IMG/VR virus record: IMGVR_UViG_3300045051_001526
Span: 1-38,044 of that record
Direction: 5' to 3' (one strand)
Origin: a virus
DNA length: 38,044 bases
In this document: piece by piece, positions 1,938-8,493 of the stretch
How positions within the stretch are numbered: the first letter of the stretch is position 1
How the letters are laid out: each line of letters starts with the position of its first letter
Notes under the pieces: model-generated
What the model was told of the DNA's origin: nothing
Databases searched by the model: none
The model's input: only the letters and a program-made list of their open reading frames with translations
Made by a program: the position numbers and the translations under genes

Positions 1938-2372
1938 TTCATTGCTTCTGGCGCAATAAGCGCCAGTATGGAATGAGTTAAAGATAGTTCATTAAAATCT
2001 ATACTGGTGTCGAAAGACATTATCAAGTAAGGGAGATTTCACAGGTTGCCGCTGGGGAAAACCCACTCTAGTCGAAGGGCTTAAACGATTCAGCAACTTA
2101 CTGAGTCGGGTGACTGACATAAGCCAAGGTCGTGAATTAACACAGGAGTGGAATATAAAACGAGGCGTCGGCACACGCCTATCCTTTATCCAGTATAGAT
2201 TCAAATGAATTAAGGAGCTGATTATTGCCTGAGAGTGCAGCAATTAGTTCCTAATATGGAACATAATATCGGCCTTATTGTCGTGAGGCTGAAGCTATGG
2301 AATCTTGTAATTCGGTCTGTCAATTTATTTTACTTTTAAAAAGCCCCAAAATGCAAAGGGGTTTTGTTTTAT
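1938..2372 (+). ncRNA. Large structured RNA candidate, class unknown
   Basis: A 435-base gene-free stretch that folds well by eye. A closing helix pairs 1938-1948 with 2291-2302 (one mismatch, one bulge). Inside are hairpin 1949-1965; a perfect 12-bp helix 1996-2007/2190-2201; an abutting GNRA hairpin (TGTC-GAAA-GACA, 2008-2019); helices 2026-2030/2098-2102 and 2045-2049/2093-2097; a crossing pairing 2078-2083/2120-2125 (pseudoknot topology); hairpins 2104-2115 and 2163-2180; a 15-position stem 2214-2228/2237-2251 with several G-U pairs and one mismatch; and hairpin 2270-2291. An intrinsic terminator follows. G-U pairs in several stems point to RNA rather than DNA palindromes. I see no marks of tmRNA or RNase P RNA. 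GOLLD- or ROOL-type giant phage RNAs are the nearest idea, unverified. Confidence 0.62.
2340..2370 (+). terminator. Intrinsic terminator of the structured RNA
   Basis: CCCC (2344-2347) pairs with GGGG (2358-2361), extended by a G-T pair and three A-T pairs. The loop is 10 bases, and the 3' arm runs into TTTTGTTTT. It ends transcription of the 1938-2372 RNA before the replication gene. Confidence 0.75.
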
Positions 2373-2476: not shown

Positions 2477-3172
2477 ATGCAGGGTTGGATAAAGGTCTAT
2501 CGCAAAATTCAGGAAAAAGGATATTACAAAAAATCAGCGTATGTCCATTTATGGGTACATTTATTACTTAATGCCAACCATGAACCTAAAGAATTTATGT
2601 GGAATAACCAAATAATAATCGTCAAAGAAGGCCAATTAATCGCAGGTAGAAAGGAATTATCGAAGGAAACCGGCATACCAGAAACAACAATTGAGCGCAT
2701 ACTCGACTACCTAGAAAAAGACAAGCAAATCGGACAACAAAAGACAACAAAATTTAGGCTAATTACAGTTCTAAATTGGAAAGAGTATCAAGGAAGCGGA
2801 CAACAAACGGACAACAAACGGACAACAGATGGACACAAACAAGAATGTAAGAATGATAAGAATATTAATTATATAAGTCTCGATGAACAAATTAAGCCAT
2901 TTGAAAGCCAATACGCACCAAGTTTGATAACGGATTTTAAGCTTTATTGGGATGAAACGAATTTAAAAGGAACACCTTTGTGGAAAACCAAGAAAACGTG
3001 GGACATCAAAAAGCGCCTTGAAAGATGGAAACGAAATGGAGAAAAATTTGATCATCGATTTGAACAAAAAAAAGAATTATCAAAGGTCGAAGAAAAACCA
3101 ACGCAGAGAAATTATGAGGAAGCAAGAGTAGATAGTGGATTTAGTGGTATAGGATCAATTTTAAAAAAATAA
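2477..3172 (+). CDS. DnaD-like phage replication initiation protein
   Basis: A 231-aa protein starting MQGWIKVYRKIQEKGYY. The Gly-Trp-Ile-Lys-x-Tyr-Arg-Lys opening, the LHLLLNANH-type helix, the GQLIAGRKELSKETG segment and the KTTKFRLITVLNWKEYQ strand match the N-terminal winged-helix of phage replisome-organiser / DnaD-like proteins, which bind the phage origin and help load helicase. The middle is polar and probably unstructured (residues ~110-135), and a C-terminal Trp-rich segment around 155-185 resembles the end domain of such proteins. It follows the large RNA and hairpin, so the origin may be nearby. No helicase gene was recognised. Confidence 0.68.
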   Translation: MQGWIKVYRKIQEKGYYKKSAYVHLWVHLLLNANHEPKEFMWNNQIIIVKEGQLIAGRKELSKETGIPETTIERILDYLEKDKQIGQQKTTKFRLITVLNWKEYQGSGQQTDNKRTTDGHKQECKNDKNINYISLDEQIKPFESQYAPSLITDFKLYWDETNLKGTPLWKTKKTWDIKKRLERWKRNGEKFDHRFEQKKELSKVEEKPTQRNYEEARVDSGFSGIGSILKK

Positions 3173-3182
3173 TTATAACTTT

Positions 3183-4103
3183 ATGGGAAAAATTATTAAA
3201 GGCTTCAAAGCTTTCAACAAAGGATTAAAGTGTCGTGATTTTCAATACGAGGTGGGCAAGGAATACAAGCTAAATGGTGATGTAAAAATTTGTAGTTCTG
3301 GCTTTCACTTTTGTGAGAATCCGCTAGACGTTCTTAATTACTATGATCTAATTGACAGTGAATTCGCCGCAGTCGAAACGGATGGGAAGATCGACAAGGA
3401 AAAAGGTCAACGAGATACAAAGTTAGCATCAGACAAAATTAAAATTACTGCAAAGTTGGATTTACCAATGTTTATAAAAGCATCATTCGATTTTCTTTGG
3501 GAACAATGCAGTAAAAAAGGAAAAGTTTCAAAAAAAGGCGATGATGTAATTGCTTCTAAAACATTCGCCGCCCAACTCGCAAGCTCAGGCGATTCTGCCC
3601 AACTCGCAAGCTCAGGCGATTCTGCCCAACTCGCAAGCTCAGGCCATTCTGCCCAACTCGCAAGCTCAGGCCATTATGCCCAACTCGCAAGCTCAGGCCA
3701 TTATGCCCAACTCGCAAGCTCAGGCCATTCTGCCCGACTCGCAAGCTCAGGCCATTCTGCCCGACTCGCAAGCTCAGGCCATTCTGCCCAACTCGCAAGC
3801 TCAGGCGATTCTGCCCAACTCGCAAGCTCAGGCGATTCTGCCCAACTCGCAAGCTCAGGCGATTCTGCCCAACTCGCAAGCTCAGGCGATTCTGCCCAAC
3901 TCGAATTGAATGGAAATACTTCTGTTGGTGCAAATATCGGATACCAAGGAATCATAAAAGGTAAAAAAGGAAGTTGGATAACACTTGCAGAATACGATCA
4001 GAACTACAAAGTAAAATTTGTTCTTTCAGCCCAAATTGATGGAGAAAAAATCAAAGAAGATACCTGGTACAAATTAGAGAATGAAAAATTTGTAGCAGTA
4101 TGA
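3183..4103 (+). CDS. DUF7666-like protein with 27-bp tandem repeats
   Basis: A 306-aa protein of unknown function. Residues 1-60 (IKGFKAFNKGLKCRDFQYEVG, then SGFHFCENPLDVLNYY) match the domain of uncharacterised phage and gut-bacterial proteins filed as DUF7666. After ~70 linker residues come twelve near-identical 9-residue units (AQLASSG[DH][SY]), then AQLELNG and a beta-rich tail with GSWITLAEYD and WYKLE. Such short-period repeats probably stack into a regular beta-solenoid; that is inference. Unit variants (D/H, S/Y, Q/R) arise from single-base changes. It ends in an ATGA overlap with the next gene. The role is unknown; a surface- or ligand-binding accessory protein is possible. Confidence 0.65.
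   Translation: MGKIIKGFKAFNKGLKCRDFQYEVGKEYKLNGDVKICSSGFHFCENPLDVLNYYDLIDSEFAAVETDGKIDKEKGQRDTKLASDKIKITAKLDLPMFIKASFDFLWEQCSKKGKVSKKGDDVIASKTFAAQLASSGDSAQLASSGDSAQLASSGHSAQLASSGHYAQLASSGHYAQLASSGHSARLASSGHSARLASSGHSAQLASSGDSAQLASSGDSAQLASSGDSAQLASSGDSAQLELNGNTSVGANIGYQGIIKGKKGSWITLAEYDQNYKVKFVLSAQIDGEKIKEDTWYKLENEKFVAV
3570..3893 (+). repeat. Twelve 27-bp tandem repeats, in frame
   Basis: Units of 27 bases start at 3570 and continue every 27 bases to 3893, with a partial thirteenth copy after that. Units differ only at GAT/CAT, TCT/TAT and CAA/CGA positions. The rest is base-identical, so expansion must be recent or kept uniform by recombination. Because the unit is a multiple of three and lacks stops, three other frames are also open here; these are not separate genes. 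Confidence 0.95.
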
Positions 4104-6759: not shown

Positions 6760-6831
6760 AGGTGCCAATGTACCAAGGTGGCGAGCGAGACTCCAAATCT
6801 TGCTGGCTCGGTTCGATTCCGAGGGTTCCTG
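6760..6831 (+). tRNA. tRNA-Trp(CCA), weak D arm
   Basis: Acceptor AGGTGCC (6760-6766) pairs with GGTTCCT (6824-6830), with one T-T mismatch; G at 6831 is the discriminator, as usual for Trp. The anticodon arm is CGAGA / TCTTG with loop CTCCAAA, anticodon CCA. The T arm CTCGG-TTCGATT-CCGAG is perfect. The D region (6767-6784) does not form a normal four-pair stem and lacks T at position 8, so this copy may be degenerate or unusual. CCA is not encoded. Confidence 0.7.
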
Positions 6832-6833
6832 CA

Positions 6834-6897
6834 ACTTGCAACGGACAAGGCTTAGGCCACGTAACCAATCGTGGGTGGGTAGCGAGTGGTTGCAAGT
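6834..6897 (+). other. Inverted repeat element inside the tRNA array
   Basis: A perfect 9-bp pair, 6834-6842 with 6889-6897, closes a 46-base interior holding GGC-ttag-GCC (849-858) and CCACG/CGTGG (6857-6861/6870-6874) hairpins, which share bases. The outline resembles a tRNA cloverleaf without a T loop. It fills the only wide gap in the array, between tRNA-Trp and tRNA-Met. It may be a processing signal or a decayed or decoy tRNA-like RNA. Confidence 0.5.
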
Positions 6898-6901
6898 AGA
6901 T

Positions 6902-6972
6902 AGCTGGATAGAATAATGGCAGTTCGCTGGGCTCATATCCCAGAGGTGGGAGTTCGATTCTCCTTCGAGCAA
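6902..6972 (+). tRNA. tRNA-Met(CAT), initiator-like
   Basis: The T arm GGGAG-TTCGATT-CTCCT (one G-T pair) and the anticodon loop CTCATAT give anticodon CAT. Three features are those of bacterial initiator tRNA: the first acceptor pair is a mismatch (A6902 against A6971), the D stem has A11-T24 (6912/6924), and the anticodon stem ends in three G-C pairs (GGG 6929-6931 with CCC 6939-6941). Base 37 is A. There is also a G-G mismatch at acceptor pair 5. The discriminator is A6972 and CCA is not encoded. Confidence 0.8.
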
Positions 6973-6977
6973 CTAAT

Positions 6978-7050
6978 CCTTTCATAGTTTAATGGTTTAG
7001 AACGCTTCCCTGTCACGGAAGTGGTCCGAGTTCGATTCTCGGTGAGAGGG
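6978..7050 (+). tRNA. tRNA-Asp(GTC)
   Basis: Acceptor CCTTTCA (6978-6984) pairs with TGAGAGG (7043-7049), discriminator G. The anticodon arm is CTTCC-CTGTCAC-GGAAG, anticodon GTC. The T arm is CCGAG-TTCGATT-CTCGG. The D stem G-T-T-T pairs with G-A-A-C. It begins 5 bases after tRNA-Met. No CCA is encoded. Confidence 0.92.
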
Positions 7051-7052
7051 CG

Positions 7053-7123
7053 GTGATCGTAGTGTAACGGTAGCACGTAGGGCTGTGAAACCTACAGATT
7101 GGGTCCGATTCCCAACGGTCACA
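7053..7123 (+). tRNA. tRNA-His(GTG)
   Basis: Acceptor GTGATCG (7053-7059) pairs with CGGTCAC (7116-7122). The anticodon loop CTGTGAA gives GTG. The T arm is TTGGG-TCCGATT-CCCAA and the D arm is normal. The last anticodon-stem pair (31-39) is a G-A mismatch. The discriminator is A rather than the C usual in bacterial tRNA-His, although a G precedes position 1. It starts 2 bases after tRNA-Asp, so the array must be cut from one precursor. Confidence 0.88.
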
Positions 7124-7127
7124 CTAA

Positions 7128-7200
7128 CAGGGTGTATTGAAATTGGCTAACATGCTTGCCTTGGATGCAAGTGGTCTGGGTTCGAGTCCCAGCACCCTGA
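7128..7200 (+). tRNA. tRNA-Pro(TGG)
   Basis: Acceptor CAGGGTG (7128-7134) pairs perfectly with CACCCTG (7193-7199), discriminator A. The anticodon arm CTTGC-CTTGGAT-GCAAG gives TGG. The T arm is CTGGG-TTCGAGT-CCCAG. The D stem is weak (about two pairs). CCA is not encoded. It lies 30 bases before the RNA ligase gene. Confidence 0.87.
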
Positions 7201-7215
7201 CAAATTTAATTAATA

Positions 7216-7230
7216 AATTTTAAAGGTCGT
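7216..7230 (+). promoter_or_regulatory. AAAGGTCG start-upstream motif, copy 1
   Basis: TTTTAAAGGTCG ends directly before the ligase ATG. The same AT-rich run plus AAAGGTCG recurs before genes at 11319 and 12500. AAAGG could pair weakly with 16S rRNA, but the distance to ATG differs from site to site. Confidence 0.4.
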
Positions 7231-8493
7231 ATGAAATTTGAAAAACCAGAGAACTCAAATTACTGTGCAACCGCAGTAAAAATCAGAAACATAATTCCGT
7301 TGCAGAATTGCGATAACGTAGTGGCAACAACCATCTTTGGTTTTCAAGCTATCATCGGCAAAGATGTGGAAATTGGAACACTGGGAATTGTGTTCCCAGT
7401 AGAAACTCAGTTATCAGATGAATTTGTTTCCAACAATAATTTATATCGTCACGAAGAATATAACAAGGAACCAAAGAAAAAAGGTTATTTGGAAGATAAT
7501 AGACGTGTTAAAGCAATTAAGTTTCGTGGTCACACCTCAAATGCTTTATTTATGTCGCTCGATTGTTTGTCATATTTGGGGATTGATTTAGATAACTTAA
7601 AAGAAGGTGATGAATTCGACAAGATTGACGGAAAGGAAATTTGTAAAAAATATGTGGTCCCTACTCGCAGCAACGGAAAAGTTAACGAGCCACCAGCCAA
7701 GAAGTTTGTTCGAGTCGATAAGCTTTACATGCCGGAGCATTTTTCTACTGATAATTACTTCCGCAATGATCGGAATATAGATCCTGAACAGGAAATTATA
7801 GTTACTCAAAAATTACATGGTACTTCAATTCGCATTGGGAATACCATCGTAAAAAGAAAATTAAATGTCTTTGAAAAAGTGCTCGGTTTATTGGGAGTAA
7901 AGATTGAGAAAACAGAATTTGATTATGTATTTGGAAGTCGCAAAGTCATTAAAGACGTGAACAACCAGAATCAACAGCATTATTACGAAACAGATATTTG
8001 GACTACTCAAGGTAAGAAATTAGAAGGGTTGGTTCCAGAAAACTTCCTTGTCTATGGTGAACTGATCGGCTGGACTCCCAATAACGCACCTATTCAAACA
8101 AATTACACCTACAATTTACCACAAGGAGAAGCACAACTTTATATTTATCGGGTGGCTTTCGTTAATGAAAAAGGTTTAGTGGTGGATCTCGGTTGGGACC
8201 AAGTAAAAGAATTTTGTTTCCAGAGGGGACTTAATACGGTGCCAGAAGTATTCCGAGGCAGACATAAAGATTTCAACGCTCAACAATTTGTTGATAGACG
8301 ATTAAAAGATATTGCTCCGGCTTGTGTGCATCTTTCAGATCCAGAGGGGATTGATGAGGGGGTATGCATTCGAGTGGATCATATTGTGCCGCAGATCTAC
8401 AAAGCCAAGGGCCCGAAGTTTTTTGAACATGAAACAGCCTTACTCGACAAAGGTGAGGTTGATTTAGAAACTTTAGAAACTGTAACTATTTAA
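7231..8493 (+). CDS. RNA ligase, Rnl5-like with N-terminal OB domain
   Basis: A 420-aa ATP-dependent RNA ligase. The nucleotidyl-transfer motif I is QKLHGTS, with Lys194 as the expected AMP-accepting residue. Motif III-type strands include VYGELIGW (274-281), motif IV is EGVCIR (376-381) and motif V is YKAKGPKF (390-397). About 150 residues precede the catalytic domain, including GFQAIIGKDVEIGTLGIVFP, which fits the N-terminal OB-fold of Deinococcus-type (Rnl5) ligases that seal nicks with a 3'-OH and 5'-phosphate. The gene directly follows the tRNA array and precedes the kinase/phosphatase that makes those ends, so tRNA repair is the likely job. The start follows the AAAGGTCG motif by one base. 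Confidence 0.88.
   Translation: MKFEKPENSNYCATAVKIRNIIPLQNCDNVVATTIFGFQAIIGKDVEIGTLGIVFPVETQLSDEFVSNNNLYRHEEYNKEPKKKGYLEDNRRVKAIKFRGHTSNALFMSLDCLSYLGIDLDNLKEGDEFDKIDGKEICKKYVVPTRSNGKVNEPPAKKFVRVDKLYMPEHFSTDNYFRNDRNIDPEQEIIVTQKLHGTSIRIGNTIVKRKLNVFEKVLGLLGVKIEKTEFDYVFGSRKVIKDVNNQNQQHYYETDIWTTQGKKLEGLVPENFLVYGELIGWTPNNAPIQTNYTYNLPQGEAQLYIYRVAFVNEKGLVVDLGWDQVKEFCFQRGLNTVPEVFRGRHKDFNAQQFVDRRLKDIAPACVHLSDPEGIDEGVCIRVDHIVPQIYKAKGPKFFEHETALLDKGEVDLETLETVTI

Follow-up and report, generated by a model that had tools for sequence, protein, structure and literature searches.

A structured phage RNA family with a tRNA-like frame and interchangeable inner domains

An intergenic RNA in a 38,044-nt viral DNA (IMG/VR record IMGVR_UViG_3300045051_001526; hereafter, the window) almost certainly belongs to an RNA family that is absent from Rfam 15. 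Comparison across phage sequences establishes a fold, a tRNA-like shell, an exchangeable inner domain and an association with phages. A constant frame, made up of the shell, a TAATCAG linker, a closing helix (P0) and a hairpin module (P6), holds an inner domain that can be the kissing-loop core found in the window (type A), one of three other folds, or a tRNA-like structure. From the same comparisons we place the conserved unit of the window copy at ~206 nt (1996-2201), smaller than was claimed in an earlier note made from the letters of this DNA.

Fold and covariation of the window copy

The RNA lies in the stretch 1938-2372, which contains no convincing gene and is flanked by a DUF736-like gene (1644-1937) and a DnaD-like helicase loader (2477-3172); the position between recombination and replication genes given in the earlier note holds for this copy. 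The stretch has an MFE of -140.2 kcal/mol (z = -6.1; 0 of 100 shuffles were equally good), i.e. its structure is above chance, and for 1985-2340 the folding z against shuffled sequence is -4.9. Together with the compensatory changes in relatives described below, this bears out the proposal that the RNA is large, structured and pseudoknotted. The proposed long-range closure of ~365 bases by one helix was not confirmed: that helix shows up only in the MFE structure of the single sequence, and nothing in the relatives corresponds to it. The alignable core of the conserved unit is 2030-2187.

Reading along the + strand, the unit opens with the 5′ strand of an acceptor-like helix (1996-2007, AATCTATACTGG), which pairs with 2190-2201 as a perfect 12-bp helix seen both in the sequence and in the MFE structure; stacked on it is the GNRA hairpin of the earlier note, present in the MFE structure as a GAAA hairpin (2008-2019, TGTC-GAAA-GACA) that we read as D-arm-like. 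The linker TTATCAAG follows (2020-2027); by its position it would be the counterpart of the family linker TAATCAG, which is enriched among members. P0 (2028-2034/2182-2188; 5 of 5 pairs compensated, 96% paired) then encloses P2 (2036-2042, ATTTCAC, with 2148-2154, GTGGAAT; 8 of 8 pairs compensated). Next come a near-invariant motif, CAGGTTGCCGCTGGGGAAAACC (2042-2063), built from invariant alignment columns and containing the P7 stem (2044-2047/2060-2063) with its 12-nt loop; the P3 stem (2064-2068/2108-2112; 5 of 5 pairs compensated), capped in this copy by what the alignment marks as a window-specific 39-nt insert (2069-2107), so that the element spans 2064-2112; and a three-way region (2114-2145) of P4 (C2114-G2145, U2115-A2144), P8 (2116-2118/2129-2131; weak support) and P5 (2132-2134/2141-2143; 2 of 3 pairs compensated). 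The universal 3′ module AAAACGAGGCGTCGGCACACGCCTA (2157-2181), common to at least 124 distinct members, carries the P6 hairpin (2163-2168/2175-2180, loop 2169-2174). Several stems contain G-U pairs, as had been noted.

Covariation was assessed in an alignment (A1) of 30 type-A cores including the window's, which are 57-98% identical (mean 74%). Its 40 pairs, in 10 helices, are paired in 95.2% of cells, and 24 of the 40 show compensatory changes, with both sides changed; the covariation score is 0.446 versus 0.184 ± 0.009 when shuffled, and pairing falls to ~41% when the partner is slid by 1-3 columns as a control. G-U cells (52) far exceed A-C cells (7), which shows that what is under selection is the RNA of this strand rather than the DNA. 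Every pair of P0, P2 and P3 is compensated, one P4 pair (columns 116/170) uses all four Watson-Crick pairs (G-C, U-A, C-G, A-U), and P7 has one compensatory change (U-A to C-G, in L017); for type A as a whole, P0, P2, P3, P4, P5, P6 and P7 carry compensatory changes alongside two conserved motifs. The covariance model aligns 2030-2187 of the window over its full length (117.8 bits, E 1.6e-27), a score that is descriptive because the window is among the model's 30 sequences; L010, which lies outside the model, scores 121.7 bits. The earlier note had proposed compensatory change as a check: the core alignment displays it, and the 3′ hairpins (2214-2294) match nothing in any relative seen.

In all 30 sequences the P7 loop (GCCG; 2048-2051 in the window) is complementary to the P6 loop (CGGC or CGGU; CGGC at 2169-2172 in the window), and the changes at these positions are one-sided alternations between G-C and G-U, with no double change. 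These patterns make a P7-P6 kissing loop in type A likely, though short of proven. This is the crossing interaction that comparison brings out; the earlier note gave no coordinates for its own crossing pair. Kissing is claimed for type A only, because outside it the complementarity of a member's own P6 loop, set against swapped loops, was not significant when only unpaired stretches were counted. Four type-C members, all with the P6 loop CGTCAC (L131, L151, L156 and L185), have UGRC in one hairpin loop that could pair with GUCA, a hint that suggests kissing in type C as well. D6 (L101) and Psa21 (L102), two related jumbo phages, have P6 loops (GGAAC and GUUCC, respectively) that are mutual reverse complements.

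A long 3′ hairpin at 2213-2252 (MFE structure; not conserved in relatives) contains the hairpin 2214-2251 that had been pointed out and that is indeed in the sequence, as is a terminator-like hairpin at ~2343-2366. We take the latter to be a probable intrinsic terminator (2343-2366, AAAGCCCC-10-GGGGTTTT, then GTTTTATTTG) from both sequence and MFE; the terminator scanner does not list it because its 10-nt loop exceeds the scanner's limit. Just 5′ of the RNA, 1948-1966 is a perfect 7-bp palindrome (CTGGCGC-AATAA-GCGCCAG) flanked by weak -35/-10-like hexamers (TTGCTT, TATGGA); it may be an operator, and the promoter scanner listed no promoter there. Elsewhere in the window, 3183-4103 encodes a DUF7666 protein with a long array of near-identical nonapeptide repeats (AQLASSGHS), and five tRNA genes (Trp, Met, Asp, His, Pro) lie at 6760-7201, 4.6 kb downstream of the RNA.

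A tRNA-like shell around varied inner domains

Many members share the order 7-bp acceptor, D arm, TAATCAG linker, P0, core, P0, T arm, acceptor, with the core occupying the place of the tRNA anticodon arm. Complete shells are found in L014, L018, L053, L067, L074, L090 and L108, often with ACC next; by our reading, ACC directly follows the 7-bp acceptor in ~8 of 18 distinct shelled members, as would be expected of substrates of RNase P and the CCA enzyme. T loops such as TTCAAAT, TTTGAAT and TGCAAAT match the tRNA consensus (L053, L067, L074, L090, L098, L108), and the linker, as [TC]AATCAG upstream or as TAATCA downstream in permuted forms, is present in 68 of the 115 members listed versus ~3 expected.

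The window copy appears to have a reduced version of this shell. It retains the acceptor-like helix (12 bp), the D-like GAAA hairpin and the linker, and judged by position the helix would be homologous to the 7-bp acceptor stems of L108, L053 and L014, and the hairpin would fill the D-arm place of tRNA-shelled relatives. There is no T arm, since the 3′ strand of the acceptor-like helix (2190-2201) directly adjoins the 3′ strand of P0; the shell finder likewise detected T arms in L108, L074 and L098 and none in the window. Many type-A members have no shell but only an extended P0 helix, and both shell and linker are missing in many of them (e.g. L011 and L012), so the shell is not essential to the core.

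P0 and P6 are common to types A, B and C; by RNAalifold, 13 of 37 pairs are compensated in type B (coliphage-like) and 18 of 29 in type C. Prophages of the Arthrobacter family carry a type F, in two cases just 3′ of a tRNA, and so does an Acinetobacter phage. In five members (L139, L157, L173, L182, L193) the inner domain is accepted by the Rfam tRNA model. The inner anticodon loop reads GATGGC by eye in L157, L173 and L196 and lacks U33; the inner tRNA-like structures that were read in this way have altered loops and are unlikely to decode. Circularly permuted forms, in which the tRNA-like structure comes first and the frame after it, are found in the tRNA arrays of the jumbo phages Psa21 and D6 and of TPWB-08. 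In Pseudomonas phage D6, a feature annotated as "tRNA-OTHER" (L101 2423-2503, OQ363659) corresponds to the tRNA-like structure at the head of a permuted member, and it lacks a normal anticodon loop. On one phage contig (L193, at 6939-7332) a tmRNA gene and over 15 tRNAs accompany a member with an inner tRNA, and the contig of a permuted member also carries a Proteo-phage-1 RNA (RF03044; L150 2494-2573).

An engineered tRNA scaffold, in which an RNA of interest replaces the tRNA anticodon arm, is used to stabilise recombinant RNAs. Unlike that scaffold, the family described here is natural and phage-borne and has a conserved hairpin, P6, as a putative clamp.

Distribution and gene context

Searches with the locus itself found little: a BLAST search of the region's DNA against GenBank phages gave no match, and the window's DNA matched plasmids over 28-31 bases only, one of these matches (in an E. 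coli lambdoid region) being a type-B member. The neighbouring exonuclease had two relatives, one of them collinear (L003, exonuclease 53% identical), and the RNA is absent from L003, the only collinear phage relative; a search with the helicase loader found no relatives. Pattern scans were more productive. A scan of IMG/VR with one 25-position motif, the most conserved-looking segment, gave eight loci, seven of which share the segment order CAGGTTGCCGCTGGGGAAAACC, hairpin, GACNGAC, AGCCAAGGTCGCG, GGAG, AACNAGGCGTCGGCACACGCC. The 3′ module, used as a pattern, turned up 87 stretches, the majority genuine, and at least 120 once its loop was left free. The module (AAAACNAGGCG-loop-CGCCUA), which is present in the window at 2157-2188, closing on P0, was found in at least 124 distinct phage sequences. 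We dropped L006, L015, L021, L041, L057, L072, L107, L110 and L111 as coding or chance matches.

Member hosts include E. coli (lambdoid prophages), Arthrobacter (phages QuinnAvery and Kumotta), Vibrio, Acinetobacter, Pseudomonas and Aeromonas, and many further members are in metagenomic phages. Among 84,980 species genomes a stricter 3′ pattern gave seven matches, of which four are real, so this is essentially a phage RNA. Surveys of Omnitrophota and of the Micrococcaceae family agree that it is very rare in bacterial genomes, with the proviso that the stricter filters may miss weak members. Type-B copies occur in 121 of 5,426 complete E. coli genomes; the type-A core was not found in E. coli genomes.

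The genes beside the RNA change from locus to locus with few exceptions: of 108 neighbours, HNH endonucleases alone turn up repeatedly (4). A strong intrinsic terminator stands shortly 3′ of the RNA in 7 of 60 members versus 0.08 expected from shuffled sequence (upstream, 1 of 55), and each of the 15 records checked contains at most one match. Varied neighbours, terminators belonging to several members themselves and never more than a single match in a record speak for an accessory RNA that works in trans rather than for one gene's leader, and we consider action in trans probable. The idea that the RNA is instead a cis-acting leader, providing for example antitermination or attenuation for a downstream operon, draws on the E. 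coli type-B copy that we examined, which sits in the late leader of a lambdoid prophage, between antiterminator Q and holin and downstream of a pR′-like promoter, on the copies upstream of terminase genes in QuinnAvery and 62AhydR11PP, and on the terminators that follow some copies. It is hard to reconcile with downstream genes that are different in nearly every phage, with the window copy's place between recombination and replication genes, and with the copies inside tRNA arrays and the permuted forms, and we think it quite improbable.

Known RNA families, rival readings and proposed role

At gathering thresholds, Rfam 15 recognised nothing in the window beyond four tRNAs; when filters were loosened and E ≤ 5 was allowed, 1850-2480 gave only rnk_pseudo at E 0.56, a chance score, and the relatives gave only tRNAs and chance scores. 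The earlier note's judgement that this is neither tmRNA nor RNase P RNA agrees with the lack of any covariance-model match to either; ARAGORN also reported no tmRNA and recognised no tag reading frame. The layout is somewhat tmRNA-like (RF00023), in that the tRNA-like domain of relatives has, where the anticodon arm would be, a long helix that runs on into an inserted domain with a pseudoknot, a feature reduced in the window. Yet it is not a tmRNA: the family has a D arm and an exchangeable inner domain and is about half the size of tmRNA. GOLLD and ROOL are ornate phage RNAs that are often found near tRNAs. The earlier note's suggestion of a divergent giant phage RNA (GOLLD, ROOL or HEARO) had in its favour that the RNA is phage-borne, ornate and near tRNAs. 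The search that it proposed, with Infernal models of these three and of group I introns, gave no match in the region even at E ≤ 5, and we give the suggestion almost no credence: GOLLD and ROOL run to several hundred nt, whereas the new family measures ~0.12-0.25 kb (~0.2 kb in the window), has a tRNA shell and matches neither in sequence or model, and no HEARO-type ORF lies within the RNA. Like HEARO RNA and the omega RNAs of IscB/IsrB, it is a structured RNA that sometimes lies beside an HNH gene, but it has that neighbour in few loci, and no guide region was seen.

Another parallel is with group I introns in tRNA genes, where likewise the anticodon arm of a tRNA-like gene carries a structured insert; the family could accordingly be imagined as a mobile, intron-like RNA element inserting into tRNA genes and intergenic sites, a picture that its scattered distribution and its HNH neighbours would suit. 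The earlier note's dismissal of a group I intron is upheld by the model searches and by the window copy itself, which is intergenic and interrupts no gene whose exons rejoin. More generally, the P0 strands of shelled members are complementary to their very ends, so that the joined flanks form no tRNA and leave no anticodon loop with U33; shell-less members interrupt no gene; no flank is conserved beyond P0; and the closing helix itself shows compensatory changes. With at most one match per record in addition, we hold a mobile element to be very improbable. ARAGORN run with introns gave a sole result, L077, which is probably chance.

Two further readings keep closer to the tRNAs. The core might be a ribozyme or self-processing element that cleaves or rearranges the transcript, freeing tRNAs or the RNA itself, for example; the family's near-invariant nucleotides, its likely kissing loop and the way it tolerates circular permutation are what a compact ribozyme typically shows, and some members adjoin tRNAs. 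We consider this unlikely: no Rfam ribozyme matched the region or its relatives even at E ≤ 1 to 5, and replacement of the inner domain as a whole would remove an active site within it. Alternatively the RNA might aid phage tRNA clusters in cis, in the processing, stability or aminoacylation of an adjacent or inner tRNA, as could be argued from the several members that have a tRNA or tRNA-like structure inside them or before them. This seems improbable to us, given the altered anticodon loops of the inner tRNA-like structures and type-A members without an inner tRNA, including the window's, whose tRNA cluster is 4.6 kb away.

Our preferred picture is of a modular phage RNA, in which a tRNA scaffold of natural origin, fitted with a clamp hairpin, would present interchangeable domains. 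The RNA would be transcribed with neighbouring genes or tRNAs or as its own unit; host tRNA-processing enzymes would trim the shell to give a stable particle, in which the P6 loop-loop contact would clamp the inner domain; and the particle would act in trans during infection. In the window member, the shell would be reduced to the acceptor-like helix and the tetraloop D arm, followed by the terminator. As to what it does, our best guess, offered tentatively, is that the particle passes for a tRNA with some tRNA-recognising host factor, either as an effector by which the phage takes over the host or as a decoy against tRNA-directed defence, an idea suggested by the tRNA mimicry and the accessory-gene behaviour. 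The decoy version is testable, since phage tRNAs are reported to counter retrons and other defences (PMC11555353). Taken whole, from framed superfamily through enzymatic trimming, P6 clamp and trans action to the tRNA-mimic guess, we rate the explanation a little better than even; that the modules serve as effectors or decoys against tRNA-directed functions or defences, repeatedly re-fitted, also by circular permutation, is plausible at somewhat less than even chances.

Neither Rfam 15 nor the open-access literature, to which the search was confined (subscription papers lie outside it), yielded a description of the family; a Pas sRNA paper and a phage L paper describe no such RNA, and an exact-sequence literature match proved to be a terminator of a P. 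acnes phage with no relation to it. We regard the family and its architecture as categorically new, with a reserve for the large unnamed candidate lists of microbiome surveys (PMC8040213), which lie outside that search and may contain parts of it. A covarying superfamily spread over very different phages suggests that RNA by itself performs some phage function, and its wide spread suggests a task needed by many phages. Members in phages with named hosts (CUS-3, Kumotta, Psa21) open that function to deletion tests. Current records leave members without annotation or label them as hypothetical proteins or unusual tRNAs. In QuinnAvery, gene 3, annotated as a hypothetical protein, overlies the RNA (L012 695-826, PQ844483) and is probably a false gene.
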